Below, one piece after another: positions 12,218 to 37,742 of a DNA stretch of 64,000 nucleotides. Numbering within the stretch: position 1 is the first letter of the stretch; every line of letters begins with the position of its first letter. Position numbers and translations under genes: made by a program. Where the stretch lies: positions 1-64,000 of the forward strand of contig JAJCYO010000043.1 of NCBI GenBank assembly GCA_029262875.1, read 5' to 3'. The stretch is from Flavobacteriales bacterium. GTDB taxonomy: Bacteria; Bacteroidota; Bacteroidia; Flavobacteriales_E; Vicingaceae. Below the pieces are notes generated by a model, which made no database searches, had not been told where the DNA came from, and saw only the letters and a program-made list of their open reading frames with translations.

Positions 12218-13367
12218 ATTTATAATTTGGTTGGGTTAGTTCTTTAATTTTCTTTACTACAGCTTCAATGTCTTCAATGGTATTGAACTTACCAAGTGAA
12301 AAACGCAATGATGCAAATGCATCATCATCATTTAATCCCATAGCTTCTAAAACGTGAGAAGGTTCAACAACAGCGGAGGAACAAGCCGAGCCATTAGAAA
12401 CAGCTATATCTTTCATTCTGCCAATCAAAACATTGGCATCTTGATCTTGAAAACAGATGTTGGCTGTGTTGTAAATCCTGTTTTCCTTATCACCATTTAG
12501 AAAAGTATTAGGCAGATTTAATAATTCAGATTCCAACTTATCTCGTAATTCTGATATTTTTGCTTGATTCTGCATCATTTCTTGACTGGCAATTTCACAA
12601 GCTTTGGCTAAGGCAATAATTCCAGGAACATTCAAAGTGCCACTTCTTAATCCTTTCTCGTGACCACCTCCGTGAATTTGGGGCGTGAGTTTTACTTTAT
12701 TGTCTCTTTGGCTTACGAATAATGCACCGATTCCTTTTTGGGCATACATTTTATGACCGCTGAAACATAGCAAGTCAACTCCTAAATCATTAACATCAAT
12801 TTCAATTTTGCCAACCACTTGTGTGGCATCGGTCATAAACAAAGCTCCTTTTTCGTGGGCTATGGAAGCAATTTCTTTGATGGATTGAATCACTCCTGTT
12901 TCGTTATTGACATACATCACAGTAACCAGAATAGTATCTGTTCTAATGGCTTTTTTAAGCTCAGCTAAATCAATCAATCCATTTTCCTGAACAGGTAAAA
13001 AGGTTATTTCAAAACCTTTTCTTTCTAAATCTTTACAGGTATCTAAAACGGCTTTGTGTTCAGTTGCAACGGTGATTATGTGTTTACCTTTGCTCAAATA
13101 ACTTTCCGCAACACCTTTAATGGCAATATTGATGGCTTCTGTTGCACCACTTGTAAAAATCAGTTCATTGGGTTCTGCATTTACCAAATCAGCTATTTGT
13201 TTTCGGGCTTCTTTTACTTTTTCGTTAATACTTTGACCAAAATGGTGGGTGCTGCTTGGATTGGCAAAGTTGTCCTTTAGAAAAGGCAACATGGCATCAA
13301 GCACCCTTGGGTCGGTAGGGGTGGTTGAGTTGTAGTCGAGATATTTGTATTTATTTTTGAAAGTCAT
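12210..13367 (-). CDS. dndA: Cysteine desulfurase (DndA/IscS type)
   Basis: A 385-aa PLP enzyme that takes sulfur from L-cysteine and carries it as a persulfide. Seen are the N-terminal YLDYNSTTPTDPRV, the PLP lysine in SGHKMYAQKG (K206), the active-site cysteine in NGSACSS (C329), and TATEHKA-type PLP contacts. Length and motifs fit NifS/IscS/DndA. It lies between the DndC-like gene (33 bases upstream) and the helicase gene (8-base overlap), so it most likely feeds sulfur to DndC for DNA phosphorothioation and is not a housekeeping IscS. The alternative is general Fe-S assembly, for example for the DndC cluster. Confidence 0.88.
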   Translation of the reverse strand: MTFKNKYKYLDYNSTTPTDPRVLDAMLPFLKDNFANPSSTHHFGQSINEKVKEARKQIADLVNAEPNELIFTSGATEAINIAIKGVAESYLSKGKHIITVATEHKAVLDTCKDLERKGFEITFLPVQENGLIDLAELKKAIRTDTILVTVMYVNNETGVIQSIKEIASIAHEKGALFMTDATQVVGKIEIDVNDLGVDLLCFSGHKMYAQKGIGALFVSQRDNKVKLTPQIHGGGHEKGLRSGTLNVPGIIALAKACEIASQEMMQNQAKISELRDKLESELLNLPNTFLNGDKENRIYNTANICFQDQDANVLIGRMKDIAVSNGSACSSAVVEPSHVLEAMGLNDDDAFASLRFSLGKFNTIEDIEAVVKKIKELTQPNYKYA

Positions 13368-13400
13368 TCTTTTTTTACAATGAGTTGTATATGCCTTTAA

Positions 13401-14504
13401 TTATATAAAACAAGATGCACAACCTTCATCATCGGAATCATCTAAGATATCCATTAGGTAAGGTGATTTTCCTTTTGATTTTCTTTCCATTCTTTTTATA
13501 TAATCTTCTTTGATTTGAGTTATTCTTTCAGGCTTAATCAATTCTTCCAGGCTTTCACTTTGCATCCAAGTATAGCCGTCTTTTTCATATTTTATTGCTT
13601 TTTTATACAAATCTGGATGTTGCTCATAGAGCCAAACCCATTCTATTTTTTGTTGGAAAAAGCAAAAGAAACAACCAGAACGGCTTCTAGCATATTGCCC
13701 TTTTTTTCCATTGATTTCAAAATCAATTTTGTTGTAATAAGCAGGCACACCAACACCACTTTCTTTTAGAATTCTAAAAACATCATCTCTTACTAAGACT
13801 TCATCATTTTCCAAAAGTGGAAATGTAGCCTCTGTTGCTAGAGGATATTCCGTTGTTTTCAAAAAATCAAAAACCAAATAATTGAAGGCCTTCACATTAG
13901 TGTCAAGTAAAATATTCAGTTTTTGGTCAAGCGTGAAGCTCGTATCAATTTTTCGTGAAATGGTTTGAATCGCTTTTTCCTGATTTTTACCAAAATCTAC
14001 ATTCTTTGATATTGCCAAGAGTTGCTCCATATTTTGATTTGCCAATAATTTTGATACAACATCCAAGCTCCAAATATTCTTACGAAATGGAAAAATGGAT
14101 TGAATATTCTTTTTTGTTGATATATATCCCTCTCGTTCTTCGTCCCCTCTGATTCCTACATAAGAAATTACAGGGTCTGTTCCAACATAGTTTTCAAAAG
14201 GTACTAATTTCAACTTTTTTGTACACCAGCGAGCATTGGATGAAGGCAGGAATCCGCCATACATTTTTAAAAAATGGTCAAATGGGTCTTCGGAGCTGTT
14301 CTCTGCACCTTGTAAAAGGTTAATCTTTATTCCAAGATATACTTCTAAATTTCGAATCAACTGATAGGTTTCTTCTAATTCTTTTCCAGTGTCGCAAGAA
14401 TAAAACTCTAAGTCAATGGAAGGGTATTTTGTCTTGACATAAATAGCCAAGGCAGCACTGTCTTTCCCCCCCGAGATACCCAATACGTGTCTTACTTTGC
14501 TCAT
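13401..14504 (-). CDS. dndC: DndC-like PAPS-reductase-family sulfurtransferase
   Basis: A 367-aa ATP-pyrophosphatase of the PAPS reductase family. The PP-loop SGGKDSA (11-17) activates the substrate with ATP. Cysteines in NARWCTKKLK and in SGCFFCFF (near the C-terminal third) could ligate an Fe-S cluster, as in DndC, and the protein ends in a Cys pair (EGCASC). It is shorter than classical DndC (about 500 aa). It would receive sulfur from the adjacent desulfurase and replace a non-bridging phosphate oxygen in DNA. It overlaps the big ATPase gene by 4 bases. A true sulfate-assimilation reductase is unlikely in this context. Confidence 0.82.
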   Translation of the reverse strand: MSKVRHVLGISGGKDSAALAIYVKTKYPSIDLEFYSCDTGKELEETYQLIRNLEVYLGIKINLLQGAENSSEDPFDHFLKMYGGFLPSSNARWCTKKLKLVPFENYVGTDPVISYVGIRGDEEREGYISTKKNIQSIFPFRKNIWSLDVVSKLLANQNMEQLLAISKNVDFGKNQEKAIQTISRKIDTSFTLDQKLNILLDTNVKAFNYLVFDFLKTTEYPLATEATFPLLENDEVLVRDDVFRILKESGVGVPAYYNKIDFEINGKKGQYARSRSGCFFCFFQQKIEWVWLYEQHPDLYKKAIKYEKDGYTWMQSESLEELIKPERITQIKEDYIKRMERKSKGKSPYLMDILDDSDDEGCASCFI

Positions 14505-17500
14505 TTTAATAGTTCTTTTAATAGGTTCAAGACGGCTGCAATGTTCGAAGTATTGTCTTTGCCTAATTTTTGTTTTAATTCGTTTTTCAATTGTTCTATT
14601 TCCTTGCTCTTGTTCTTAGGTACTCTAACCACTTTCGGGTCAATCTTGCTAAAGAATGAATCGATTTTTACACCAATCACTTCTTCTTTATTCTCGTCAA
14701 TATCCGTTTTTGAAATTTTAGTCAAGCTGTCTAACTCCAAAATCATTGACTTAAACCGCTCGTAAAGCAAGATTTCATCTTCATCCGAAAACATCTCAAG
14801 CGTTCTACCTGTAATGGCTTGAACTATGGAGTTTAACCAAGCTTTTTTGTCATCTAATGGAGAGTCAAGTCGTTGAACAAAAGTTTTTTGATTGCTCAAA
14901 AGCATATGCTTTTTTAATTTTGCAAACCGCTTTTGCAGGTATTCTTTGTAATCTTCAAAGTCAACCGATTTACCAACAAATTCACTGCAAATGAATTCCT
15001 CAAATCTTTTTAATAATTCATCATAAGAAGTTCTTAACTCCCTTACTGCATCTTGAAGATTCGTGGTATAACTCTGAAGTTTAGACTTATCCTTTTGTAA
15101 AGTTGATAGCGTTATTCCCAATGCACTTGGAAAAGCTTCAAAGAAAGTTTCTTCTGGGTCTTTACTTGTTGAAATGGCTAGACGAATCTTTAAAGCCGAA
15201 GGAGAAAGCCTTTGAGTGTTTTTGGTGTAATCAGGTAGTTGCTTGTAAAAAACTATAAACGGCTTAATGGTTTCAATAAATGAGTTGTTGTCAAATTTTT
15301 GCTCTGTTGATTGATTCAAGAAAGTTCGGTAACTATTGAAAATGTCCAGTTTCACACCTTCAATGTCAAAGGTTTTAATGGAATACTTATCTGGGTATTT
15401 GGCAATCAACTCCAAATTTTCTTCCGACAAGTTCGGGATATAACTATCATCATTAAAAATGGCAAAGTCATCTCGTTTCAAAAACAAGAATGTGGGAATC
15501 CAAAAATCAATCAAACCCTGCTTTAGTTTGAAAGGTCTTTTGCTTAGCATTTCGGATAACTCAGAAATCTTAAGTTGTTCAGATTTTGCACTTTCTAAAA
15601 AATCTTCCGATGCACTCCATAACTTATTGAAAGAGGAATTTTTGTCAATAGAAATTACACCCAACGAGTTTTCTCTGATTGGAGAAATACCGTTTTCTTT
15701 TAGAAGTGATAAATAAATTGTCTTTTCAGGTGGAAACTTGGAATCCTCAAACCCTAAATTATCCTTGTCCCAATTGTTGACTAAAGCCTTGAAGTAATTT
15801 CTTTTTGCTGTGTGAATAGATGAAGAAATCTTGTGTTTGTTCACCAATTCATTCTTGAACGAAGGTGTTGCATCATAAACAATACTACAAACCTGTGAAA
15901 GCAATTTATTGAAGTCTTTCTTGTTAGCTATTTTTTTTTCTTCACCGTTGAAATACCATTTCACTTCCTTACTTCCAGAATAAATACTATCAGTTATGTA
16001 GTGGTTTAACAAACGTATTTGAGATTCAACGATATTTTCCAGTTCCCTTTTAGCAACTTTATCGTCCTTGTTTTCTTCTATTACTTTTTGAATTTTTTCA
16101 ATCTCAAACAATAAGTTCTTTATCTCGCCAGAATTTCTGAAAAAACAATAAATGATTGCTTCCTCTTGTAATTTAGATTTGTTTTGAATGTCACTTTCTT
16201 TTAGCTTACTATTGAAGACGAGATTCACAAAACCATCTATTTCTCCTTCTGGAGTGTTTTGGATTGGGTAATCTGAAATTACAAAATCAAAATACCTTGG
16301 TGTTCCTGTGGCAAAAGAATATTGTTTGGCAAAAACAGGACGAAATTGAATGTGCTTATTCAGAAGTGTTGTAATATCAACCACTTCTGAAATTTTATTA
16401 CCTGCTTCAATCAATGCAGTTTGAATGTCCAAATCCGTTCCTTCAAAAAGAATAAATCTTTTAGAGTGCGAACGGTAGCGAATAATGTTCTTAGCTTCAA
16501 GAATTTTAATTACGTTTTTAGAATCTGAAACCCCACAAGCAATTATCAAGTAATCAATAAAGAAATTCAAATCTAAGATTGAGCCACTTGCTGAAAAAAT
16601 ATTCAAAAGTCCAATAGCCTTAACCGTCTTGATATAATCATTGATATTTGAATCAAATGCTCTTTCAACTTCTTCAATAGAAGAACGAATCGAACTCCAA
16701 GCAGAGAAATCGGGATTATATTTTGAAGTTAAAAATGAATAGAAATTGAAATTCAGGTAATCATAAACATTTGATAAATTGTAAAACGGATTTTCCTGTT
16801 TATTGAATTTCGCCAAACCTGTGTGGTCAGATGACTCAAGAAAGGAAAATAGAGATCGTTCATTTTGTCCGTATCGTTGTAATGATAGCGTGAGAATATT
16901 AGCAGAAAGAATATCAAGAGGGCATAACTTAGAAGCAATCTCTTTTAAGAAATCATTATTAAAGTTAAAGGCTTTTGTTTCGATTGTCAGCTTTAAGCAC
17001 TTTTCAATAGTTACACTAGAGGTCTTGCTTTCAAAATTCTCAGCAACGTATTCCGATGCCAAAAACAAAAGCTGTTCAACTGGCTCATTAAAAGTTATTT
17101 CACGGAAACGCCCTTTTACTTTTGTCCACTCTTGTTGTTGGGTTTTGCTTAGCGAATAAGCGTAAGATTCTAAATTTTGATGGACTGTTGTAATCAGAAC
17201 AATATTGTGTTTGGGATTATTACAAAATTCTGCCAATTGTTGTACGAAGTATAATTCTTTCTCTGGGTTGTGTTTACTAGCATACTCTAAAAACTTTCCA
17301 AACTCATCAATTAGAATAAACAAAACCTTGTTTTCTTTTCCAATAGAGTGGTATCTGTTGAATATTTCTGAAAGGATATTTTCCTGTTCATTTTTTTTTG
17401 TTTGAACTTCAAAAGCATCAGCAAATTGCTCCACAATGGAAGAGTAAGAGCCGATAATCTTTACAAAATCAAATTTAGGATTTGCAATAAAATTAGGATC

Positions 17501-17719
17501 AAAATAGCGTTTTGTTCCTTTAATACTTTGCTCAAATGCCAATAAAAAAGAGGACTTACCTGTGCCATACGTTCCAACCACATTAAAAGAGCGAATGCCT
17601 TTTTTAAAGTCATTGACTATTTGGCTAACTACTTGTTTTGCATTGGGTGTTGGGATATAATTAAAATCCCTATCAGTATCCCTGATAATATTTACCGATG
17701 TTGTGAAATTATTTGCCAT
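14501..17719 (-). CDS. Large P-loop ATPase of the DUF4007/phosphorothioation module
   Basis: A 1072-aa protein whose N-terminus is an AAA-type ATPase: Walker A GTYGTGKSS (49-57), Walker B KVLFILIDEFGKF (D138, E139), and a likely sensor in IVLITTVHQN. The remaining ~850 residues are helical, with no motif I can name. It overlaps the DUF4007 gene by 11 bases and the DndC-like gene by 4, so it belongs to this operon. It is reminiscent in size and P-loop position of BrxC/PglY-type ATPases of BREX and of DndF/DndH-type restriction ATPases; which one is closer cannot be settled by eye. Likely role: DNA sensing or restriction. Confidence 0.7.
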   Translation of the reverse strand: MANNFTTSVNIIRDTDRDFNYIPTPNAKQVVSQIVNDFKKGIRSFNVVGTYGTGKSSFLLAFEQSIKGTKRYFDPNFIANPKFDFVKIIGSYSSIVEQFADAFEVQTKKNEQENILSEIFNRYHSIGKENKVLFILIDEFGKFLEYASKHNPEKELYFVQQLAEFCNNPKHNIVLITTVHQNLESYAYSLSKTQQQEWTKVKGRFREITFNEPVEQLLFLASEYVAENFESKTSSVTIEKCLKLTIETKAFNFNNDFLKEIASKLCPLDILSANILTLSLQRYGQNERSLFSFLESSDHTGLAKFNKQENPFYNLSNVYDYLNFNFYSFLTSKYNPDFSAWSSIRSSIEEVERAFDSNINDYIKTVKAIGLLNIFSASGSILDLNFFIDYLIIACGVSDSKNVIKILEAKNIIRYRSHSKRFILFEGTDLDIQTALIEAGNKISEVVDITTLLNKHIQFRPVFAKQYSFATGTPRYFDFVISDYPIQNTPEGEIDGFVNLVFNSKLKESDIQNKSKLQEEAIIYCFFRNSGEIKNLLFEIEKIQKVIEENKDDKVAKRELENIVESQIRLLNHYITDSIYSGSKEVKWYFNGEEKKIANKKDFNKLLSQVCSIVYDATPSFKNELVNKHKISSSIHTAKRNYFKALVNNWDKDNLGFEDSKFPPEKTIYLSLLKENGISPIRENSLGVISIDKNSSFNKLWSASEDFLESAKSEQLKISELSEMLSKRPFKLKQGLIDFWIPTFLFLKRDDFAIFNDDSYIPNLSEENLELIAKYPDKYSIKTFDIEGVKLDIFNSYRTFLNQSTEQKFDNNSFIETIKPFIVFYKQLPDYTKNTQRLSPSALKIRLAISTSKDPEETFFEAFPSALGITLSTLQKDKSKLQSYTTNLQDAVRELRTSYDELLKRFEEFICSEFVGKSVDFEDYKEYLQKRFAKLKKHMLLSNQKTFVQRLDSPLDDKKAWLNSIVQAITGRTLEMFSDEDEILLYERFKSMILELDSLTKISKTDIDENKEEVIGVKIDSFFSKIDPKVVRVPKNKSKEIEQLKNELKQKLGKDNTSNIAAVLNLLKELLK

Positions 17720-18593
17720 AGTATTGATCTAAAATTGTGTAAGCGTCTACTTTATTCTTGAATTGCAACTCTTTAATTCCTGCTTGGTCAGTAAAAGTGA
17801 TGTCTTTAAAATCACCAACTAAATCAGAGATTTTATTCATCAAGCCGGAACGATTTAAGGCGAAAATTGAACCTGGACTATTTAAGTCAAACTCCAAAGA
17901 ATTTAAACTGATAGAGTTTCCATAACTTGGGTTATCAAGTATGGTATATAATAGAATAGATTCGGGTAGATTATCTCTTTCTGTATTTTCAATGTAAAAT
18001 TGCTCGTCTTTTCCCTTTCCTGTTGTCTTTAAAAGTTCAATTTCAGAAAGTATTCCTGAAAAACTATCTTCAACATCCTTACGTTCTGTGTCGTTTTTAA
18101 AAAGGTTGGCAAAAACAATAAAGTCTTTCGCAACAGTATTTTCATTGAAATTCAAATCGGGGTTACTTTCTCCAATTCTTTTAATATAGTTCACAAAGGT
18201 TTCTTTGTTAAAGAACAATTTTTCCTTCCTAAACTCATTAAAGATGATACTGTATATTGAAGCAAATCCACTTTTCACCAATTGATAATGTAAAAGCCAA
18301 AGGCTTGCTTCGTCCTCCAAAAATGGGTCATATCCATTTTCTTCGTCAAACATTCGTTTACCAAATTCAGTTGGAATGTCTTTGTTGCCAATAATATTGA
18401 AAGCCTTTAACCAAAAACGTATAGATGAAACCATATTTTTACCCACACCAAGTTGTACAACCGCATCTTCGTCATTGAAATTCTTTCCTTCTTGCACATA
18501 GTCATACCCCTTTTTTAACCAAAGTTGTCGGCACTGAAAGGAGTCGTGTCCTGAGAATGTGTATTTCGTTATATTTGATTGTTCTAATATCAT
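17709..18593 (-). CDS. DUF4007-family protein
   Basis: A 294-aa protein recognised by the family hallmarks near the N-terminus: TFSGHDSFQCRQLWLKKGYD and AVVQLGVGKNMVSSIRFW (residues ~13-65). DUF4007 proteins are typically encoded beside PAPS-reductase-type genes and large ATPases in DNA-modification and defence operons, and their activity is not known. The N-terminal part looks like a helix-turn-helix DNA-binding region, so recognition of the modified site or regulation is possible. It overlaps the ATPase gene by 11 bases and starts 41 bases after the XRE regulator gene. Confidence 0.82.
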   Translation of the reverse strand: MILEQSNITKYTFSGHDSFQCRQLWLKKGYDYVQEGKNFNDEDAVVQLGVGKNMVSSIRFWLKAFNIIGNKDIPTEFGKRMFDEENGYDPFLEDEASLWLLHYQLVKSGFASIYSIIFNEFRKEKLFFNKETFVNYIKRIGESNPDLNFNENTVAKDFIVFANLFKNDTERKDVEDSFSGILSEIELLKTTGKGKDEQFYIENTERDNLPESILLYTILDNPSYGNSISLNSLEFDLNSPGSIFALNRSGLMNKISDLVGDFKDITFTDQAGIKELQFKNKVDAYTILDQYYGK

Positions 18594-18634: not shown

Positions 18635-18844
18635 TTAATGCTGCATATCTTCTTTTTTCTCTTCGATTATCAGATCCTTTACTCCTACATCCAATAACTT
18701 GGCTATCTCAAAAAGGATTTCCAGTTTTGGTTGTCTTCGGTTTTTCACATAGCCGTTAACCATATTGTAACTTTTACCTAACTGATCAGCTAACCAGGTT
18801 TGTTTAATCCCTTTTTTGTCAAGAACTTCTTTAATTCTGTTCAT
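18635..18844 (-). CDS. XRE-family helix-turn-helix regulator
   Basis: A 69-aa DNA-binding protein consisting of one Cro/CI-type HTH (KGIKQTWLADQLGKSYNMVNGYVKNRRQPKLEILFEIAKLLDV) plus a short acidic/His tail. It is the first gene of the phosphorothioation operon and therefore its likely repressor. The inverted repeat at 18906-18924, 62 bases upstream of its start, is a plausible operator. Confidence 0.85.
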   Translation of the reverse strand: MNRIKEVLDKKGIKQTWLADQLGKSYNMVNGYVKNRRQPKLEILFEIAKLLDVGVKDLIIEEKKEDMQH

Positions 18845-19200
18845 ATTACTGTATCAAGAAAATAAAAAAATTTGAAGGTAGAAAGTTAGTAAAATGATTG
18901 AGAAGTATATCAAAAAATGATATAAAGAATCTAAAATAATTTTTATTACAGCTTTTGTAGTCAATTAGGACAATCCTATTCTTTATTTTCAAAAGAAATA
19001 TATGTCAACTTATCCATTTTGTCTCTATGGTTACTAATTTCTAAAGTAGATTATGGTAATTAGTAAGTACTTTTACTGATTGTGTGTTTGACAGAAATGG
19101 GATATATTTGTGTATAAATCAAAATAAAAAATTATAGGGTAAAGTAATTTTAGAGACATATTGATATAGCGTAGTCTATAATCATCGAAACGGAAAACTG
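18845..19200. promoter_or_regulatory. Promoter region of the phosphorothioation operon, with candidate operator
   Basis: No gene is seen here. TATATC (18906-18911) and GATATA (18919-18924) form a 6-bp inverted repeat with a 7-nt spacer in front of the XRE gene, fitting a small HTH dimer site. TATATTTG at 19103-19110 matches the plus-strand -7 element TAnnTTTG and could start the transcript that contains the first structured RNA copy about 140 bases further on. Confidence 0.45.
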
Positions 19201-19327
19201 GAAATTTTTAACAAAACGATATTATAAGCGAACGCTCATTCCTTTGGGGTGGGCTTTTCTTATTTCGTTTTGTGGGTATTCCAGTACCTCTGTTTCGGAT
19301 AAGTTAAAGTTTCACCCCTCTTTTTTG
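19200..19327 (+). ncRNA. Structured RNA/terminator, copy A
   Basis: The first of two related elements. Helix P1 pairs GGGGTGG (19246-19252) with TCACCCC (19312-19318). P2 pairs CTTT (19254-19257) with AAAG (19306-19309). P3 pairs CTTAT (19259-19263) with ATAAG (19299-19303). An apical hairpin GGTAT-TCCA-GTACC spans 19275-19288. The 3' side of P1 runs into TCTTTTTT (19319-19326), like an intrinsic terminator. Small asymmetric internal loops separate the helices at the same positions as in copy B. No named RNA family is recognised. Confidence 0.65.
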
Positions 19328-19439
19328 TTTGTAATTGTATCTTTACAGTGTTAAACTTTAAATTAAAAACATATAGAAAAATAATAATAAGATATATAAA
19401 TGAATGGCGTAATGCTGTAATTCTTGCTAGAGAAAATTC

Positions 19440-19567
19440 GGAACTTTCAAGTGCAACAAGATTTACAGGCAAGACGCTCACCGATTGGGGTGGGCTTTGC
19501 TTGTTTTGTTGTATGGGTATCCGAATACCTCTCTGGCAGACAAGTAAAAGTTCCACCCCTCTTTTTT
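19440..19567 (+). ncRNA. Structured RNA/terminator, copy B, leader of the response regulator
   Basis: The second copy, 241 bases after the first. P1 pairs GGGGTGG (19487-19493) with CCACCCC (19553-19559). P2 is CTTT/AAAG (19495-19498, 19547-19550). P3 is CTTGT/ACAAG (19500-19504, 19540-19544). The apical hairpin is GGTAT-CCGA-ATACC (19516-19529). P3 shows a full compensatory change from copy A (A-T to G-C); P1 and the apical hairpin each turn a wobble pair into a Watson-Crick pair. It ends in TCTTTTTT 31 bases before the response-regulator ATG, so it may act as an attenuator for that gene or make a separate small RNA. Confidence 0.68.
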
Positions 19568-19597
19568 GAGGGTAATATTAACCAAATAATACTACCT

Positions 19598-19972
19598 ATG
19601 ATTAAAGTATTGATTGTTGACGACAACCGTTTTATTAGAGAAGCACTAAAGACCTTGCTTTGCCACCACCCTCAAATTGAAATAATCGGAGAATGTACTG
19701 ATGGATGTGAAGTAGTTCCATTTTTGAATGACCAGGAAGTCGATGTAATAATAATGGATATAAGGATGAAAATAATGGATGGTTTAGAAGCAACTAAATT
19801 GGTTCACCAACAATTTCCTTTAGTGAAAATACTTGGATTTAGTTGTAATGATGAAGCTATGTTTAAGGATAAAATGCTCAGGTATGGAGCAACAGGATTT
19901 TTATCTAAATTTGATGCTAATATAAATTCAATTTATGATGAAATTGAAAGTTGTTATAATTCAACGGAGTAA
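19598..19972 (+). CDS. Stand-alone response-regulator receiver protein
   Basis: A 124-aa CheY-like receiver domain with no output domain. Seen are the acidic pair in LIVDDNRF (phosphorylation pocket), the phospho-acceptor Asp in VDVIIMDIRMKIMDGLEA, and a Lys-type position near FLSKFDANI in place of the usual KP motif. The frame is open upstream, but the ATG at 19598 is chosen because the receiver fold begins exactly there and the upstream codons lie inside the structured RNA. A single-domain receiver needs a partner kinase or protein target, and none is seen nearby. It is isolated between the minus-strand operons and followed by a terminator. Confidence 0.85.
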   Translation: MIKVLIVDDNRFIREALKTLLCHHPQIEIIGECTDGCEVVPFLNDQEVDVIIMDIRMKIMDGLEATKLVHQQFPLVKILGFSCNDEAMFKDKMLRYGATGFLSKFDANINSIYDEIESCYNSTE

Positions 19973-20052: not shown

Positions 20053-20424
20053 TTAAATCGCATCTATTTGAGCAAGTAATCTACCACTAATAATTTTGAA
20101 ACTTTGTTTATTATCATAGATTTTTACTTGACATTCATTCAATAGATTTAACAAATCTCGTTTCTTTTTCAAGTCCATTAAATCACTTACCCAATAGGAC
20201 TGTTGCTTTGGAATTTCCTTACGTCTATCTTGTTTGTGAGCGTTTAGAATCTCCTCATACTTAGTTTGGTGTTCTTCTGCATAAAACAATCCTTCAGGGA
20301 TGTAATCAATAAAGCTCTGAATACTCTGTTTTTTGCTTTGTTGTTTTTCGAGAAACTTTAATAGATTTTCCTCTGCCTCTATATCGTGAGGAGATTGCAC
20401 TTTTGCATTAGCTGTTTCATTCAT
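20053..20424 (-). CDS. Hypothetical protein (123 aa)
   Basis: The last gene of the 20-37.7 kb minus-strand block. It is a soluble, highly charged helical protein (EEHQTKYEEILNAHKQDRRK; LMDLKKKRDLLNLLNECQVK) and no family is recognised. It overlaps the 74-aa gene upstream by 8 bases, so the two are co-translated. The A-rich leader (AAAAAGTAAAAACT) before its ATG matches others in the block. Confidence 0.6.
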   Translation of the reverse strand: MNETANAKVQSPHDIEAEENLLKFLEKQQSKKQSIQSFIDYIPEGLFYAEEHQTKYEEILNAHKQDRRKEIPKQQSYWVSDLMDLKKKRDLLNLLNECQVKIYDNKQSFKIISGRLLAQIDAI

Positions 20425-20641
20425 AGTTTTTACTTTTTTGATTTTTCATTTCTGACCTTTCTATATTTCCCTTTTTGTTAAGGAAATAGAAATGACCTTT
20501 TATTTTTTTTATTCCTGGTGTTGCTACAACCATTTTTTCTTTCGTTGTTAAATTTATTTCCATCAAGTTTCCATCTGCATTTACATAATAGAGCCTTCCT
20601 TTCTCACGTTTAAAGTTCAATACTGCGACTTCTGTTGCCAT
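20417..20641 (-). CDS. Hypothetical protein (74 aa)
   Basis: A small basic protein with short beta-hairpin-like repeats (GRLYYVNADGNLMEI; GHFYFLNKKGNIERS), as in tyrosine- and glycine-rich strand-turn repeats. No family is recognised. It lies between two other small genes of the minus-strand element block, overlapping the downstream one. Confidence 0.55.
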   Translation of the reverse strand: MATEVAVLNFKREKGRLYYVNADGNLMEINLTTKEKMVVATPGIKKIKGHFYFLNKKGNIERSEMKNQKSKNYE

Positions 20642-20649
20642 ATTCCTTT

Positions 20650-20964
20650 TTAATATTTAAGGTTATTTCGCTCAAATTCCGAAGTCATGTGGTCCCGTAA
20701 TTCTTGCAATGTTTCGATCAAGGTATTGACCTTATGTAAAGCGTTTTTTCGACTTTTTAATTGGGAGTGGCTTCCGTGTAAGGTTATCTTCTCATTACAA
20801 TCGGCAATACGAATGAAATATCCATTCCATTTATCATTAGTCATTCTAACGGATACAAAAGCGTTACTTTCTTTGTCGGGTAGATTTAAAAATGCTCTTT
20901 TGTGAAATTCTTTGTGCCTAATCCTTTTCTTCTTTGGTTTCGGTTTTGTAACGGTTTCGCTCAT
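20650..20964 (-). CDS. Hypothetical basic protein (104 aa)
   Basis: A Lys/Arg-rich N-terminus (KPKPKKKRIRHKEFHKR) is followed by a small predicted alpha/beta region (NAFVSVRMTNDKWNGYFIRIADCNEKITLHG) and a helical end. Nucleic-acid binding is plausible from the charge alone. It sits 8 bases upstream of the 74-aa gene and 48 bases downstream of the packaging-type ATPase gene. Confidence 0.55.
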   Translation of the reverse strand: MSETVTKPKPKKKRIRHKEFHKRAFLNLPDKESNAFVSVRMTNDKWNGYFIRIADCNEKITLHGSHSQLKSRKNALHKVNTLIETLQELRDHMTSEFERNNLKY

Positions 20965-21012
20965 TGCTGGTATTTGTTGTATTATGTATTGGAATTAAAA
21001 TGCCTTGAAAAA

Positions 21013-21939
21013 CTATGCAACAGGTTCTTGATAAGGGCTTGCTGAAGTGGATTCGTGAAACCTCAGATAGTTGGTGATTAATTTTATAACTGCTGCATTA
21101 CGGTTTTTATAAATGAGTTCTTCGTTAAAATCTCGTTCCATTTGCATCATTTTGATTTTACGAGCTTCTTCCTGATCAATAAATGTTTTACAGGCTCGGA
21201 TATATGCAGCTCTACTGCAACCTCTAATCCGTTGCTTTCTAAGGTTTACATAAACAAAGTAGCTTGCACGCCTGTCAAATTCATCCTCTGTGATTTGACC
21301 ATTGGAAAACTTAGTATAGGCTAAGTCGTATTGTTCATCTACTATGAGCTGTGCAATTCGTACAATTGGATATTTCGGGATTCGTTCTTTGATATAAGTT
21401 ACATCATCGACCTGATGGTGTAATCTGAGCCAAGTGCAGTTTTGAAAGGCTGTTCGAGTTACCTTCCCGATTGATTGATGGGTAAAAACGATATCCACAC
21501 CTTTATGCCTCAAAGTACAAAGTGCGGAGATCATATCCTGACCTTTTTCACCAGTCATATAATCATCAATATCATCGAGTAAAATCAGTCCATTTCGGAA
21601 ATACTTCAGAATCTTTTTTACTACCTCCTTTTTTTCTTCCTTACCCATCGGAGAACCATCTTTGTTAAATGGTCTAATTCGTCTTGGGCGTTTTGCCATT
21701 AATTTATGAAGTTGGTCTGGAGAAACTGTTTTGTAAGCCGTGTAATCATCATCGTTCGTATCGAATGCTAATACTTTTCTCCCTGCTTTTCCAGTAGCAG
21801 AATTATCTTTTAGGTAAAGTCGAGCTTCGTTCCTGTTTCGATAAGTTTTACCAACACCCGTTTCTCCACAGACTATGGTTAGCATGGGTTGACGACTTTT
21901 TTTTAATCGAATACTATTTGATTGAGTTTGTGTAACCAT
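21013..21939 (-). CDS. FtsK/HerA-superfamily ATPase (packaging- or Zot-like)
   Basis: A 308-aa P-loop ATPase. Walker A GETGVGKT is at 25-32, Walker B is NGLILLDDIDDY (D122, D123), and a helix with TLRHKGVDIVFTHQSIG follows, where Gln155 is the sensor-like glutamine of HerA/FtsK ATPases. This order is typical of genome-packaging ATPases of tailless dsDNA phages and of Zot-type assembly ATPases of filamentous phages. Conjugation coupling proteins are larger and carry TM helices, which are absent here. The start overlaps the stop of the acidic protein gene (TAATG). The role inferred is DNA packaging or translocation for the element. Confidence 0.68.
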   Translation of the reverse strand: MVTQTQSNSIRLKKSRQPMLTIVCGETGVGKTYRNRNEARLYLKDNSATGKAGRKVLAFDTNDDDYTAYKTVSPDQLHKLMAKRPRRIRPFNKDGSPMGKEEKKEVVKKILKYFRNGLILLDDIDDYMTGEKGQDMISALCTLRHKGVDIVFTHQSIGKVTRTAFQNCTWLRLHHQVDDVTYIKERIPKYPIVRIAQLIVDEQYDLAYTKFSNGQITEDEFDRRASYFVYVNLRKQRIRGCSRAAYIRACKTFIDQEEARKIKMMQMERDFNEELIYKNRNAAVIKLITNYLRFHESTSASPYQEPVA

Positions 21940-22868
21940 TATTTTTCCTCCTTTACATCATTCGCTTTAGGTTCATCATCTTCAGCTACCTCTAACACAT
22001 CTTCAGGTTGTATTGATTGCGGTTCAACGTGCTCAACAATTACCTCCTCAATTATTTCTTCTTCAGGTTGATTTTCTTCGTGTTTAGGGGCTTCTTTTTT
22101 AGAGGTAGAGGAAGTAGTATTGTTTTGAGGTTGTTCTTCTTCTTCATAATCCTCATCCTGTTCAGAATAGCCTTTTTCTTCACGAACTATATCCAATATG
22201 CGTTCAACCAGAATTTCATTTTCGGCTTTAATCTCCATCACTACCTGACCCTTTTTCATCATAATGGAAATGAAAGCTCCCATAAGCTGTTGTTCAGGGG
22301 TAAGTTTCTTTGCTTTTCGTTTTAGGATTTGAATCAGTAAAGGGCGTAACAAGGCTTTGTCTTCGTCATCCAGTTTGATTCGATTGACATTCTTCGAGTT
22401 TTGTTTTTCAATGACTTGAATGATTTCCTCAAACTCATAGAACTCTTTGTGTTTCTTAATTTTCACAAAGAATCCACCTCCAACTTCAAGTACATTATTG
22501 GCTATTCCTAAAATAGAATCTGCAGCTTGCGTTGCGTGTCCTTTTGGGATCTCAAATTCTTCACCATCATCCTCTATCAAAATTGCTTCGCTGGCCCCCT
22601 CATTAATGTCTTGTTCAGGTGCATCGTCCACTTCTTCCGCCTCCATATATTCCGCATCTTCTTCGGCTTGATTAGAAGTAGTATCATCATTCACCTGTTC
22701 CTGATCAGAACTGGATGTATTTTGAGTAGATTCAGAATAGTTTGCACCATTATCTTTATCGACAACAGGCTGATTAAGGGGACTGCTTTCTTCATCGTGC
22801 AATTCCTCGAATTGTATTTCATCAGCGTTACTTAGAACCTGATGAACTTCCTCATTTGTATTTGACAT
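21939..22868 (-). CDS. Acidic disordered/coiled protein
   Basis: 309 aa, extremely rich in Glu and Asp, with Gln/Asn/Ser-rich linkers at both ends and a folded helical centre (about 100-225) that contains ADSILGIANNVLEVGGGFFVKIKKHKEFYEFEE and a second helical stretch. No family is recognised. It lies one base from the packaging-type ATPase start, so the products may act together; acidic scaffolding or DNA-mimic roles are possible but unproven. Confidence 0.6.
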   Translation of the reverse strand: MSNTNEEVHQVLSNADEIQFEELHDEESSPLNQPVVDKDNGANYSESTQNTSSSDQEQVNDDTTSNQAEEDAEYMEAEEVDDAPEQDINEGASEAILIEDDGEEFEIPKGHATQAADSILGIANNVLEVGGGFFVKIKKHKEFYEFEEIIQVIEKQNSKNVNRIKLDDEDKALLRPLLIQILKRKAKKLTPEQQLMGAFISIMMKKGQVVMEIKAENEILVERILDIVREEKGYSEQDEDYEEEEQPQNNTTSSTSKKEAPKHEENQPEEEIIEEVIVEHVEPQSIQPEDVLEVAEDDEPKANDVKEEK

Positions 22869-22875
22869 AAACCAT

Positions 22876-23370
22876 TCATTTTAGTTTTGAGATAAAATGG
22901 ATGGTACTACTTTCTAATCCATCGTACTTTTCTTTAAAAGCCCTATGGAATTGAGGTATGGAAAGAATGCTATTACACTTGTGAATAAAATAGAGAGCTG
23001 AGCCTCTTTTCTTATCGAAAGTTTCCGCTATTTTCGAGTGGCTGTTCTCGGTGTACTTGCTTAATAAGTGATAACAAGCCATTCGTGCTTCACGGTATTC
23101 TCTAATCTCACTATTGAAAAATTTCTTTTCGTCCAGGTCAAAGATGAGAATGGTCTCGGCAATAATGTAGTCCTTGATTAGCTTGAGTTTACGAATCTCC
23201 TTACGACCAATTCGGGTATTGTTGGAAAAGCTATTGATAATCTCAACAGATTTCTCCAATCCGAATTTTCCCACCAGCTCATCTACACAATTTTGCAGGT
23301 CGGCATAGTTCAATTTTCTATGGTCTTTATTGTTAATCAATGTGTTAATCATTACTACAAAGTTCCTCAT
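22876..23370 (-). CDS. DnaA domain IV-like DNA-binding protein
   Basis: 164 aa. The C-terminal half matches the helix-turn-helix of the DnaA DNA-binding domain in pattern: an ARMACYHLLSKYT helix, SHSKIAETFDKKRGSALYFIHKC (compare IG..FG.RDHSTV..A in DnaA), then a final helix. The AAA+ part of DnaA is absent. Proteins of this kind bind element origins or control transcription. A perfect 21-bp palindrome (23378-23398) sits 8 bases before its ATG, a probable binding site. A replication initiator or copy-control role is inferred. Confidence 0.65.
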   Translation of the reverse strand: MRNFVVMINTLINNKDHRKLNYADLQNCVDELVGKFGLEKSVEIINSFSNNTRIGRKEIRKLKLIKDYIIAETILIFDLDEKKFFNSEIREYREARMACYHLLSKYTENSHSKIAETFDKKRGSALYFIHKCNSILSIPQFHRAFKEKYDGLESSTIHFISKLK

Positions 23371-23377
23371 TTTTATT

Positions 23378-23398
23378 TTGTCTCAAATTTTGAGACAA
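23378..23398. promoter_or_regulatory. Perfect 21-bp palindrome, likely operator
   Basis: TTGTCTCAAA (23378-23387) and TTTGAGACAA (23389-23398) are exact reverse complements around one central T. It lies 8 bases upstream of the DnaA-domain-IV-like gene, so it is a strong candidate for autoregulation or for origin binding. Confidence 0.75.
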
Positions 23399-23462
23399 TC
23401 AAGGCAAAAAAAACCACACTTTTCAAGTGAACCTCCTTTTACGTAGTACCATATACATTTTG

Positions 23463-24164
23463 TTACATTTTTAGTTTTTCCAGATTGTACTTATAGCTGA
23501 ATATAGCAGCTCTATTCAAGACAAAATTGCCTATTTGAATCGTCCAACCAGTGATGTTGGTTTTAACTCCCTTCTCCTTTAAAAAAGACCTTCCCAACCC
23601 TTTGGTTTTCCTGTTTTTCCATAGTTCTTCTAAGATTTCTTCGTCCTTTGATTCTTTTTTGATTGCCTGAACGGATTTAGGCTTTTTTGAAGTCGGTTTA
23701 ACCATACCAACACCTAATAGACTTTTCCCATCAGGAAGTTCATTAGACTTAACCGTTACGCTTTCCTTGTCCTTGCCTGAAGCTGAATGATATTCAATTA
23801 CTTCAGCTATTACTCCGACATATTTAGGGTTACCTCCAGTAATTTCAATTGCATCCCCTTTGGTGTATGCTGGTTTAGGTTCTTCTTTCTTTTTTTCTGG
23901 TTTAGGCTCTGGCTTCTTCTCTTGCTCCTCGATCACTTCATTGTTTTCCAGCTGGTCTTCCAGTTCATTGAGCATATCTTCGTGTAGTTCGTGGTCAAGC
24001 TCTTTCAGTTGGTCAAGTAATTCTATTCGATCTTCGTCAACCATATCTTCCAATTTGGAATGCATCTTGTCGAAGATTCTAACCTTCTTTTGAACAGCTT
24101 CGGAAAATGCAGAGTTATCCAGCTTGTTGCTGCTCATAAACTCCTTGTGCTTCATTTTTTTCAT
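23463..24164 (-). CDS. Coiled-coil protein with SH3/KOW-like segment
   Basis: 233 aa from the ATG at 24164, chosen because the leader ACATAAAAACTAAGAAT matches other starts in the block; the frame remains open to 24200. A Glu-rich coiled coil (about 40-90) precedes a Pro/Lys linker and an SH3-like segment (KGDAIEITGGNPKYVGVIAEVIEYHS), as in KOW-type nucleic-acid-binding folds. The C-terminus (about 180-233) is basic with a possible small HTH. No family name can be given. It lies 19 bases downstream of the 477-aa coiled-coil gene. Confidence 0.55.
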   Translation of the reverse strand: MKKMKHKEFMSSNKLDNSAFSEAVQKKVRIFDKMHSKLEDMVDEDRIELLDQLKELDHELHEDMLNELEDQLENNEVIEEQEKKPEPKPEKKKEEPKPAYTKGDAIEITGGNPKYVGVIAEVIEYHSASGKDKESVTVKSNELPDGKSLLGVGMVKPTSKKPKSVQAIKKESKDEEILEELWKNRKTKGLGRSFLKEKGVKTNITGWTIQIGNFVLNRAAIFSYKYNLEKLKM

Positions 24165-24183
24165 ATTCTTAGTTTTTATGTAA

Positions 24184-25617
24184 TTATTTTTTAAATCCAA
24201 TCTCTTTTAGGTAAGTTGTAATATCTTCAGAGCTAATAATGTATTTAGCCAAATCTTCTTCAACTTTAGCCCTCTGTTCTTTTGAATCTTCTATCCAAGA
24301 TTTAACACGGTCTAAATCACGACTTAAAATGTAGGCAGCGTCATTGACAAGTTTGTCATTGCTCAACGACTTTAAATGCTTTATTATTTCTGTTTCAGTT
24401 GGTACTTCCACTTTCTTTTTCACTTCTTTCTTTTCCTCCAATGCGTCAAACTTTTCTTTAATAGCATCCGCACCTGGTTTTGCTTTTACCTTATCCATTC
24501 CCCAAGCACTAACCAGTTCCTTGTGAGCAGTCAATAAAATTTTCTCTGTCTTTTTCTGAACATCGAGATTTTCTTTTAAGTGTGGAGGAATAAGACCAGC
24601 TATTGACAAAAGCTTATTTTTGAGTTGTGTCAATCTCGTTTTCTTGGGCTTAGCTCCTTCAGCGTCTCTTTTCTTTTTATTCGCCTCACTTACAACAGCT
24701 CTACATCGATCCAATTCAGGTTTTAGCTCTTGCAATTCAGCTAATATCCGTTTAGAACGCTCTTTTTCCGATTCTTTTTGTTCTTTCCCATCGGCATTTA
24801 AAAGAGGCTCTCCAAGTGCATTGAACAATTTATTCATCGAAGTAATGGCTGCTTTTTTCGCTTTAGAATCATCAATATCCATTGCCCAATCTTTAAAACT
24901 CTCAACGGCTTTTTCTACTTTTTTATGGAGTTTAGATTGCTCTTTTTTCTCCAATGCTTCTTCCAATTCTAATCGAGTTGTTGCAATAATAGTTTCATCT
25001 TGACCTTCCAAATCAATCTCTATATCTGTCAACTCATCAATTACCTCTCTTACTAATTCGTTAGTCAGTATTGCTGTTTGCGATTTTTCGGATTCATCAC
25101 TTTTAGGCTTCGTTTCTTTAGGAGTAATAGATAGTTTGGCAATAATTACTTTTGCTTTCTTACTCGTTTTTGATTCTGAAATATTTGATTCAGCTTTTTC
25201 AAAACTGCGAATAGCCTTTGTTACTTGAGATTTGAATTTAGAATTATCTGCTTCACCCAATGTGTCTTCCAAATCGTGCCTAACAGTAGCAATAATCGTT
25301 TGGTCTTCCCCATCGAGGGTCATATCCAATTCAGTCAACTCCTCAATTACTTCTTTAACCAATTTTTTGGTTAGTACAGCCGTTTCAGAATTTTCCTTAT
25401 CCTTAGATTCTTTCTTTTCGGCTGCTTTGATTGCTTCAGGGGCATATTTCTTTGCCATCCCAAACAACTTATCAATGTTTTCTTGAGATTCTTTAGCGAA
25501 CAATTTCTTGTCTTCTTCCTTGTTGTAATCTTTAATCCAACTTTTTATTGCCTCCTTTAGAGGTGCTGAACCGATTTTATCTAAGTCCAGGTTTAATATG
25601 TCTTCAACTTTTATCAT
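24184..25617 (-). CDS. Coiled-coil protein with internal tandem duplication
   Basis: 477 aa, almost entirely helical and charged. Residues 79-163 and 181-265 are duplicated units (TAVLTKKLVKEVIEELTELD versus TAILTNELVREVIDELTDIE, each followed by TIIAT.R..LE), and residues ~20-56 resemble the end of the same unit (SWIKD...DKLFG). The middle (RSKRILAELQELKPELDRCR) is a coiled coil and the C-terminus is helical. No family is recognised. The position upstream of two other coiled-coil genes suggests a scaffold or structural set. Confidence 0.6.
   Translation of the reverse strand: MIKVEDILNLDLDKIGSAPLKEAIKSWIKDYNKEEDKKLFAKESQENIDKLFGMAKKYAPEAIKAAEKKESKDKENSETAVLTKKLVKEVIEELTELDMTLDGEDQTIIATVRHDLEDTLGEADNSKFKSQVTKAIRSFEKAESNISESKTSKKAKVIIAKLSITPKETKPKSDESEKSQTAILTNELVREVIDELTDIEIDLEGQDETIIATTRLELEEALEKKEQSKLHKKVEKAVESFKDWAMDIDDSKAKKAAITSMNKLFNALGEPLLNADGKEQKESEKERSKRILAELQELKPELDRCRAVVSEANKKKRDAEGAKPKKTRLTQLKNKLLSIAGLIPPHLKENLDVQKKTEKILLTAHKELVSAWGMDKVKAKPGADAIKEKFDALEEKKEVKKKVEVPTETEIIKHLKSLSNDKLVNDAAYILSRDLDRVKSWIEDSKEQRAKVEEDLAKYIISSEDITTYLKEIGFKK
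24823..25383 (-). repeat. Intragenic tandem duplication (two ~85-codon units)
   Basis: The two units cover about 25129-25383 and 24823-25077 within the 477-aa gene, separated by about 50 bases. They share the pattern TA[VI]LT..LV[KR]EVI[ED]ELT, an acidic run, then TIIAT.R..LE. Divergence at the residue level shows the duplication is old. Confidence 0.65.
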
Positions 25618-25628
25618 GTTTATCTATT

Positions 25629-25862
25629 TTATGCTATTGCTAATGTGGTTACTGGTACTGTTTTATTTTTAAGCATTTTTTCGATACCATTTGTAAGCAT
25701 AGCTGTTGCCAATGAAGTAACAATCACTATCCCTGCGGTTTGTACCAATTCTTTTGTGGGAGGTATTTTATAAGAAAATTTACCGTCCTTTTGCTTACCC
25801 ATATTATAGTAAATCAATGCTTCAGCTAATCCAATGACAAAACCTGCTCCTGTTATTATCAA
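25629..25862 (-). CDS. Small two-TM membrane protein (77 aa)
   Basis: It has two hydrophobic helices, IITGAGFVIGLAEALIYY and TAGIVIVTSLATAMLTNGI, separated by a polar loop with KQKDGKFSYKIPPTKE. The start is a TTG at 25862; no in-frame ATG exists between it and the upstream stop. It resembles small phage holin-like or virion membrane proteins in size only. It lies 11 bases upstream of the 477-aa gene. Confidence 0.55.
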   Translation of the reverse strand: MIITGAGFVIGLAEALIYYNMGKQKDGKFSYKIPPTKELVQTAGIVIVTSLATAMLTNGIEKMLKNKTVPVTTLAIA

Positions 25863-25895
25863 TATTTCTCATTTCATCTATTTCAGGTTTTAGAG

Positions 25896-26213
25896 TTAGG
25901 CAGCCAATTTTAATTCAAGCTCAAGTAAGTCTAATGACCTTGCTCGCTCTTGTTCTTTTAATCTGATATTATTGGTGCTTTTCTTGGGAGTACCGATCAC
26001 TTTAATCCCATTCTTTTTTAAGAGGTCGGCAAGTAAACGGTCAGCTTCTTCTGCCTTTTTATGCGATTTAGTAAAACCTCCTGAATCCTTTTTTATCACT
26101 TCAAAGGCTTCTACTGGATTCAATTTTTTACCAATCAACTGAATAATTTTTGGTTGATTTTTTACCTCAATTTTAGAAAGGTCTTCTGTTTTTACATTGC
26201 TGATACTATACAT
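25896..26213 (-). CDS. Hypothetical protein (105 aa)
   Basis: It starts at the ATG at 26213 (MYSISNVKTEDL), after the leader CATAAAAACTAAAATT shared with other genes of the block. The frame is open to 26291, but that part overlaps the gene upstream. A helical protein with a central QLIGKKLNPVEAFEVIKKDSGGFTKSHKK motif and a basic, Leu-rich C-terminus. No family is recognised. Confidence 0.55.
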   Translation of the reverse strand: MYSISNVKTEDLSKIEVKNQPKIIQLIGKKLNPVEAFEVIKKDSGGFTKSHKKAEEADRLLADLLKKNGIKVIGTPKKSTNNIRLKEQERARSLDLLELELKLAA

Positions 26214-26217
26214 AATT

Positions 26218-26541
26218 TTAGTTTTTATGGTCAATAGAAAATAGTTGTTTGTGTAATGTTTTAAGTGTGAAAAAGAACTCATTAGCTTCATCCTGATTAC
26301 TGTAATAAACAGAGCAATTCTGAGGCGTTCCGTCTAACTCAAAACATTGGTAATGGTAACATTGGATAGGATTGTCAATATTGCTCATATCAATAGTTGT
26401 CCATCTTAGTATTAACACCTTTGAACGCTCAGGTGATTCCATAATTCTAAAATCCCTGCATAGCTCTTTACATTCCATACCAATCTCAATGGCTTTATCC
26501 ATTATTTTATCAATCACCTCTTTTTTAAGCTGCTTTTCCAT
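26218..26541 (-). CDS. Hypothetical protein (107 aa)
   Basis: A small alpha/beta protein with Cys residues (GMECKELCRDF; YHYQCFELDGTPQNCSVYYS) and no recognised family. It overlaps the DUF7192-like gene upstream by 17 bases and is followed after 4 bases by the 105-aa gene, so it is part of the same co-transcribed string. Confidence 0.55.
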   Translation of the reverse strand: MEKQLKKEVIDKIMDKAIEIGMECKELCRDFRIMESPERSKVLILRWTTIDMSNIDNPIQCYHYQCFELDGTPQNCSVYYSNQDEANEFFFTLKTLHKQLFSIDHKN

Positions 26542-27541
26542 CCTTCAAATTTTGGTTATAGGTCTCGATAATATTACTTACCTCTTTAACTGCTGACTCT
26601 AAGGAATAGCTCTGTTCAAATACAAATCCTTTAGCGTTAATGGTATTCACAAAATCATAGCCCAATCCTTTAGTTAATGAGCCTAATCCTTTAGGAATAG
26701 TTAATCCGAAGTGGTTGGATAATGCTATTAATGCTTTGAAACCTCTGTATCGGAAATATCGGGGATCAGAAGTCATTAATAGCAATTGATTTTTATCCAA
26801 TTTGTCCTGGAAACGTTTTATTCTAATTACACCTATGCTTGCCTGACCAGAATGAGAAGTTCCCAATAGTACATTTACTTCAACTGGTACACCCCTGAGT
26901 TCTAAAAACTCCACCAATTCAGAACAAGCTAACCCAACATAAAGCATTTGATTTCCCTGCACATCGGCATTTGCTCCCGACATCAAGTAAAGCTGTAAAG
27001 AGGGGTAACTGGTCTCTTTATTTTCAAAATAGGCATACACGTTTTTTACTGCCGTTCGGTTTCCAAAATTCCCTAACTCTACATTTAATTGGCTAATAGT
27101 TGTGTTAACGGGTGTTTGTGTATTGACACGGTGTTGCTTGTACAAAGCCATTGCTGCTCTGTCAAAAGAGAACACACCTAAACCTCTATCGTTGTATGAT
27201 ACTTTAGGCTTAGGCATCACCACATTATCCAAGTGATCCATATATTGAACTAATTGGTCTTTTATCTTTGGTTGTATGGTTTTAAGTAATTGCATCCCTA
27301 AAAAAGTTCGGTGTTCGTTCAACTCATCTATATCTTTTGGCGTAGGAGTTCCATACCAAGCCGTCTGATTATGTAAGTTGTTTTTAGTGCTTGCATTTAC
27401 ACTCATCCATCGCTCCTTATTTTTTACTGAAAGCCCCTGCATTTCCATATCCACAAAAGCATTGAAATTCCATACGCTATCGAATAGCATATAATTATAC
27501 TTGGTATTTCCTTTAGCAATATGTTTCTGAGGTATTTTCAC
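26525..27541 (-). CDS. DUF7192-like (VWA-like) partner of the AAA+ ATPase
   Basis: 338 aa starting at a GTG that overlaps the stop of the AAA+ gene (TAGTG). The pattern resembles a phage family I associate with DUF7192: FDSVWNFNAFVDM at the N-terminus, TAWYGTPTPKDIDELNEH, KPKVSYNDRGLGVFSFDRA, then a conserved beta/alpha end (GVIRIKRFQDKLDKNQLLLMTSDPRYFRYRGF). Such proteins often follow CobS/MoxR-type ATPases in phages, recalling the MoxR-VWA and CobS-CobT chaperone pairs. Metal insertion or remodelling of a protein partner is a possible role; unproven. Confidence 0.6.
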   Translation of the reverse strand: MKIPQKHIAKGNTKYNYMLFDSVWNFNAFVDMEMQGLSVKNKERWMSVNASTKNNLHNQTAWYGTPTPKDIDELNEHRTFLGMQLLKTIQPKIKDQLVQYMDHLDNVVMPKPKVSYNDRGLGVFSFDRAAMALYKQHRVNTQTPVNTTISQLNVELGNFGNRTAVKNVYAYFENKETSYPSLQLYLMSGANADVQGNQMLYVGLACSELVEFLELRGVPVEVNVLLGTSHSGQASIGVIRIKRFQDKLDKNQLLLMTSDPRYFRYRGFKALIALSNHFGLTIPKGLGSLTKGLGYDFVNTINAKGFVFEQSYSLESAVKEVSNIIETYNQNLKDGKAA

Positions 27542-32756: not shown

Positions 32757-33171
32757 TTTTTTCTTGTGATAAGGTTTCTAAATAGCTTCTTAAAGTGATT
32801 TCAGTATAAACTTGCCTTGCTTTATCTTTTCCCAATCCGCCATACATTAAAGAATCTTGAGGTAAGGTTTCATCCACTTGATCCCAACTCTCTTTGAGTG
32901 TCCACATTGCTGAAACCATTTTATCGGTATGAAAAATGAAACTGGCTATTTCATTGACTGTTTGCCCTCCTGTATAAGTGATATCCAAATAGCTCTCAAT
33001 TAGAGCTATGGGGTCTTCTTTTTCTTTTATAGCTCGTTCAACCAATTCGTGTAAATTGATATAAATAGCTGATTCGTGGTCTTCAAATCTTTTGAAAGCA
33101 ACAGGATTCGTAACCATGTATAACTTGGCTTCCGATTCGTTTTGCATTAATTGAGCGTTGTAGTATATCAT
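32749..33171 (-). CDS. Hypothetical protein between polyvalent protein and helicase (140 aa)
   Basis: A soluble acidic helical protein (ESAIYINLHELVERAIKEKEDPIALIESYLDIT...) with no recognised motif. It lies 18 bases downstream of the 1.5-kilo-residue gene and overlaps the helicase start by 8 bases, so it is translated with it. It may be a partner of one of the two giant proteins. Confidence 0.6.
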   Translation of the reverse strand: MIYYNAQLMQNESEAKLYMVTNPVAFKRFEDHESAIYINLHELVERAIKEKEDPIALIESYLDITYTGGQTVNEIASFIFHTDKMVSAMWTLKESWDQVDETLPQDSLMYGGLGKDKARQVYTEITLRSYLETLSQEKNG

Positions 33172-33189
33172 TCTTTCTTTTTTTGACTT

Positions 33190-37710: not shown

Positions 37711-37742
37711 ATAAGCACCCTGTTTTATTTGATAAAAAACCA

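Follow-up and report, generated by a model that had tools for sequence, protein, structure and literature searches.

Post-transcriptional control is poorly known in Bacteroidota. Among the systems closest to the RNA element studied here, transcription-terminating riboswitches lie in the 5' leader, carry a conserved unpaired core between variable helices together with a pseudoknot, and use competing terminator and antiterminator pairings, all of which resemble our element. Our element differs from them in that its downstream genes share no pathway and no Rfam riboswitch model matches it. Leader-peptide attenuators of the trp and his type resemble it in their mutually exclusive hairpins ahead of a U-run. 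The paralogous sRNAs FopS and GibS of Bacteroides are likewise multi-copy Bacteroidota RNAs linked to SusC genes (PMC11697453). FopS are stand-alone sRNAs of Bacteroidaceae which use the R1 seed for repression of susC mRNAs in trans (PMC11697453), whereas the present element is a long leader acting in cis, has a structure of its own and is set apart from FopS/GibS by their description (PMC11697453). In CTnDOT-like elements, the new RNA is found between primase/helicase and dihydrofolate-reductase-family genes; the rteR sRNA (RF04181) occurs in the same loci a few hundred bases away, but it is a different RNA on the other strand. It was located at 4762-4835 of locus L278, 4765-4844 of L279 and 2248-2328 of L088, and adjoins the dihydrofolate-reductase-family gene that comes after the new RNA.

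Flavo-1, 6S-Flavo, Bacteroidales-1 and other Bacteroidota motifs (PMC2864571) are structured RNAs like our element; those having Rfam models were scanned and gave no match to it. The sequence-only reading of this locus had recognised no named family, and this agrees with our scan of the window and the homologous loci, in which none of the 4227 families of Rfam 15 matched over the element at the gathering threshold and the permissive scans gave only chance-level matches there. A description of the element was also not found in the main-text passages of five surveys (PMC2864571, PMC6429828, PMC8040213, PMC8632094 and PMC11109978) or in those of two transcriptome papers (PMC9723704 and PMC7366714). 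As a kind, structured attenuators or riboswitch-like leaders are known; this family appears undescribed.

The window, which is the whole stretch of 64,000 nucleotides that was analysed, carries two copies of the element in series ahead of a response regulator gene. The features are as follows:

18635..18844, minus strand: divergent XRE-type HTH gene (HTH_3), 310 nt upstream of copy 1, which may or may not belong to the RNA cassette
19103..19110, plus strand: -7 promoter motif of copy 1, TATATTTG, Bacteroidota-type, 51 nt before the model start
19154..19330, plus strand: copy 1 of the RNA element, full model (covariance model R1, 161.5 bits; in its training set)
19165..19180, plus strand: copy 1, P0 hairpin TATAGC/CTATA
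19186..19297, plus strand: copy 1, long arm (fold A), from RNAfold and family covariation; P1 19186-19193/19290-19297, P2 19197-19202/19280-19285, P3 19213-19219/19265-19272, P4 19224-19228/19259-19263, P5 19234-19241/19248-19254
19246..19318, plus strand: copy 1, predicted fold B (the rod of the sequence-only reading), from the own-versus-swapped partner test on 92 homologues; centre 19246-19256 with tail 19302-19318, CTTAT 19259-19263 with ATAAG
19275-19277/19286-19288, plus strand: copy 1, P6
19319..19326, plus strand: copy 1, T-run TCTTTTTT after the tail
19338..19345, plus strand: possible -7 motif for copy 2, TATCTTTA, weaker than the TTTG form
19393..19571, plus strand: copy 2 of the RNA element, full model (R1, 185 bits; in its training set)
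19403..19538, plus strand: copy 2, fold A; P0 19403-19408/19414-19419, P1 19425-19432/19531-19538, P2 19436-19441/19521-19526, P3 19452-19459/19506-19513, P4 19465-19469/19500-19504, P5 19476-19482/19489-19495
19487..19567, plus strand: copy 2, predicted fold B; centre GGGGTG 19487-19492 with tail CACCCC 19554-19559
19516-19518/19527-19529, plus strand: copy 2, P6
19560-19567, plus strand: copy 2, T-run
19598..19972, plus strand: receiver-only response regulator of 124 aa (PF00072, E 3.4e-21), its ATG 26 nt after the end of the copy 2 model

Most of what the sequence-only reading had described at this place is present. Two elements stand 241 bases apart (GGGGTG at 19246-19251 and 19487-19492), both end in CACCCC-TCTTTTTT (19313-19326 and 19554-19567), the apical hairpin GGT..ACC is conserved in both, and CTTAT/ATAAG changes to CTTGT/ACAAG between them. 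The upstream sequence is alignable too, the copies aligning across ~265 bases, and the -7-like motifs are found at 19103 and 19338. The length of ~130 nt was an underestimate, the element being ~175 nt and beginning ~80-90 bases 5' of the rod. Both copies fold better than dinucleotide shuffles (copy 1, z -5.6; copy 2, z -3.1; 0 of 200 shuffles as low for each). Minimum energy and family support both favour a longer arm (P0 and then P1 to P5), which takes its 5' half from sequence upstream of the rod. The rod of three helices, proposed as the structure of the element, is real as the alternative fold B but is neither the most stable nor the sole structure, and was rejected as the latter.

The neighbourhood of the RNA cassette was also annotated. 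SspABCD-PbeA type phosphorothioation defence genes (SspB, SspC, SspD, SspA/DndA and PbeA) occupy 10013-18593 on the minus strand, directly upstream of it. A mobile-element-like block with a Zot-like ATPase, a Strawberry-notch helicase, an Eco57I-type methylase and a MoxR-like AAA protein extends over 20053-37743 on the minus strand, with heavy-metal and efflux cargo beyond it.

The covariance model search of Bacteroidota genomes and the survey of downstream genes, which the sequence-only reading had proposed as a check, upheld a selected RNA structure. Model R1 was built from 12 sequences of close relatives in the family, including both window copies. The RNAalifold consensus of these 12 had 48 pairs, 16 of them with two-sided changes. 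Among 102 aligned members, 44 of the 45 pairs of fold A (P0 and P1-P5) plus P6 change on both sides, and none of 500 shuffles scored as high. In the same alignment 94.4% of cells pair for fold A plus P6, falling to 38-43% once the partners are slid by 1-3 columns; the members were aligned by means of a model that itself includes fold A, towards which these percentages lean, but this bias is unimportant in view of how large the effect is and of an independent G-test ranking, in which the strongest covarying columns are those of P1, P2 and P3. P2 is strictly Watson-Crick, with no G-U in 550 cells, and P6 is supported by the own-versus-swapped partner test (z 9.5). The most conserved unpaired positions are AAAA after P1, AAUUU after P2, GG before the 3' strand of P2 and CCUC before the 3' strand of P1. 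Diversifying selection on the hypervariable helices is not claimed, since the rapid drop in stem identity, which saturates near 0.42, also fits an ordinary structural RNA. Chance resemblance of two diverged repeats, a doubt natural enough when only two copies were visible to the sequence-only reading, is refuted by these homologues and carries a negligible probability.

Over all helices, the non-Watson-Crick pairs on the plus strand comprise 247 G-U against 27 A-C, and the plus strand is therefore the functional RNA. The same counts bear on a DNA-level element, such as an integron attC-like site, a transposon end or a recombination hairpin. The multiple copies, diverse neighbours, frequent location in mobile elements and long inverted repeats seen here would suit such an element, but attC sites and DNA hairpins would show no preference for G-U; moreover, the promoter motif and U-run stand at fixed positions and the element lies nearly always 5' of the next gene. 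We regard a DNA-level function as very improbable.

The 3' tail that follows P1 is similar to the 5' arm of P5/P4 and so can pair with the same centre strand. This pairing was examined in 92 homologues by comparing own with swapped partners, a test in which the pairing itself needs no column alignment and phylogeny is not modelled. A tail and a centre from one sequence pair better than do a tail and a centre from different members (z 11.3; P4 centre with tail, z 8.4), whereas the 5' arm against the tail, which controls for relatedness, gave z 0.3 and -0.6 and no covariation. The value of -0.6 gives no support to a pairing of the tail with the P4 5' arm, which had been suspected from two sequences. 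The centre-tail pairing recurs in the Lentisphaerae-side set (z 3.7; control 0.6), as in GGCGCGGCTC/GAGTCGCGCC followed by TCTCTTTT, whose sequences are unlike those of the other members. The test also supports a helix that joins the strand immediately 5' of P1 to the P3/P4 bulge (z 13.1) and competes with P1 and P3.

These pairings make the rod a terminator-like alternative, predicted to be mutually exclusive with fold A. At least 6 T within 10 nt follow the tail segment in 86 of the 92 homologues, in comparison to 9% at random positions, and in these 86 a stable hairpin followed directly by a U-run, as in intrinsic terminators, would form; the centre-tail helix encloses ~50-60 nt, which is large for such a terminator. 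At the level of covariation, two exclusive folds couple the core to an expression platform, as in riboswitches. In 89 of the 92 sequences, forcing fold B gives a structure of lower stability than fold A, the median difference being 11.7 kcal/mol. Fold B would thus need kinetics or a factor: either fold A is the default and termination needs help, or termination is transient during synthesis.

The motif TAnnTTTG occurs at most 95 nt upstream in 144 of 187 homologues (77%), in comparison to 7.5% in shuffled sequence. In 160 of 177 cases the next downstream gene has the same orientation as the element, compared with 70 of 170 for the upstream gene, and the downstream gene starts at a median of 41 nt after the element. 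From the promoter motifs upstream and the same-strand gene next downstream, the element is placed in the 5' leader of genes, as riboswitches are. In the window, the regulator starts so close to copy 2 that little room is left for a separate promoter; at some loci of the SusC type the gene is 180-370 nt away and a second promoter could be present. Leader-peptide attenuation is disfavoured: in contrast to the trp and his type, no leader peptide is conserved, and upstream open reading frames of 8 codons or more are depleted (present in 36%, compared with 76% in shuffled sequence). In Chryseobacterium, a second conserved non-coding stretch (GGGGTGTACAATCCATTGCGGC) lies ~60-100 nt past the element (L156, L160, L177, L187 and L229).

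These placements also weigh on the twin small RNA that the sequence-only reading had offered beside an attenuator or riboswitch-like leader. Such a stand-alone sRNA, the main rival reading, would end at the T-run through the centre-tail terminator, refold after its release to the more stable long arm and act in trans by its free tail. It would agree with fold A as the equilibrium fold, with the promoter motif of copy 1 and the possible one of copy 2, with the dispersed copies (up to six per genome, 12 in one MAG) and with the 17 of 177 loci where the next gene is on the other strand. Against this stand the prevailing same-strand gene and its short gap; the own-family regulator, which lies within ~30 nt at most loci and would need readthrough; and the covariation of the tail with the centre, an unexpected trait in a seed directed at other targets. 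The sRNA is hence rated unlikely, and the leader with a terminator-like 3' end is the part of the functional proposal that stands.

The downstream proteins are diverse and include SusC/RagA receptors, receiver domains, RibD_C, sigma-70, type III methyltransferases, lipoproteins and others. PF00072 is matched at E 0.001 in 11 of 132, so that a leader specific to response regulators was rejected as a general rule. The link does hold in the own family, where RNA and receiver-only regulator travel as a unit at most loci. A mobile element common to the own-family copies was rejected, as most loci share the RNA and regulator alone. The host genome has a second such locus (contig C12), with two tandem RNA copies followed by another receiver-only regulator (L030, 9695-10057, minus strand). 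The acidic pocket of that regulator reads VEKN in place of the VDDN of the window regulator, and it may not be phosphorylated.

An XRE-type ORF was found near 48 elements and is divergent and upstream in 47 of them, most starting ~105-130 nt before the element. This arrangement would suit a leader whose binding partner is a protein and not a small molecule, for example an RNA-binding antiterminator or the HTH product of the divergent gene. A recognised HTH neighbour is however present at only about one quarter of the elements, many loci being without one, and the proteins, which are diverse, may be no more than repressors that bind the promoter; a protein-binding leader is accordingly held to be quite improbable. 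In Flavobacteriia, divergent XRE/HTH genes of many subfamilies are frequent ~105-130 nt upstream (L160, L177, L208, L217, L084 and others), and SusC or sigma genes are often downstream of the element at these loci.

R1 detected full-length members in 13 of 46 genomes of the own family. In the search of the host's class it did so in 97 of 395 genomes, which span 59 of 196 genera, and a single genome carried up to six dispersed copies. In a phylum-wide draw, the element was present in 59 of 395 genomes, fifteen of them from other Bacteroidota classes. Carriers found by exact-pattern search include Flavobacterium, Chryseobacterium, Elizabethkingia, Mucilaginibacter, Bacteroides and Parabacteroides, a named example being the Bacteroides ovatus BFG-107 plasmid NZ_CP081918.1 (44224-44408). 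When three member sequences and the window copy were compared with plasmids and phages, the only matches were four distant ones to plasmids, from the Bacteroides member. In the Verrucomicrobiota/Lentisphaerae-side phylum, reached through a Lentisphaerae-labelled MAG, 10 of 96 genomes carry the element, with the same architecture and different helix sequences. That label is borne by a MAG with 12 copies (G762, L289-L293). In the class of a Firmicutes-labelled MAG, 1 of 113 genomes matched, and this was the entry MAG alone; false positives are therefore rare, and the lone match is probably contamination or transfer. Two loci of one genome (L051 and L058) have near-identical flanks and different P1-P3 helices, each self-complementary.

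Taken together, it is fairly probable that the conserved 5' leader RNA is a conditional transcription attenuator of a riboswitch-like kind. Every copy would have a promoter of its own. Fold A would pair the 5' half with the centre into the long arm P1-P5, with P6 forming a small pseudoknot about the P2 strand and the conserved unpaired AAAA, AAUUU, GG and CCUC resembling a putative binding pocket; the 3' tail would remain free and transcription would proceed into the gene. In fold B, the tail would take the centre strand and form a hairpin followed by U's, at which transcription would stop, and the helix of the pre-P1 strand with the P3/P4 bulge would also compete with fold A. A signal, which may be a small molecule, a protein or an RNA, would set the balance between the folds, and in the window two leaders in series would gate the receiver-only response regulator. 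That transcription terminates, that the folds switch, that an effector acts and that the regulator gene responds are inferences from the covariation, and an attenuator and a ligand-binding riboswitch are not separable from sequence. Tentatively, the element may represent a new class of ligand-binding riboswitch in Bacteroidota and the Verrucomicrobiota/Lentisphaerae-side phylum, used in tandem here, which would sense a general cellular signal and thereby control genes for surface receptors, regulators, defence and conjugative elements.

The leader is present in roughly 15-25% of the sampled Bacteroidota and host-class genomes, yet it is absent from Rfam 15, and it would rank among the commoner unassigned cis-regulatory RNAs of Bacteroidota. 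The covariance model and the named examples make ligand and termination assays possible now. An attenuator of this kind would place SusC-type nutrient receptors, type III restriction-modification genes, CTnDOT-like conjugative elements and orphan receivers under a further level of regulation.
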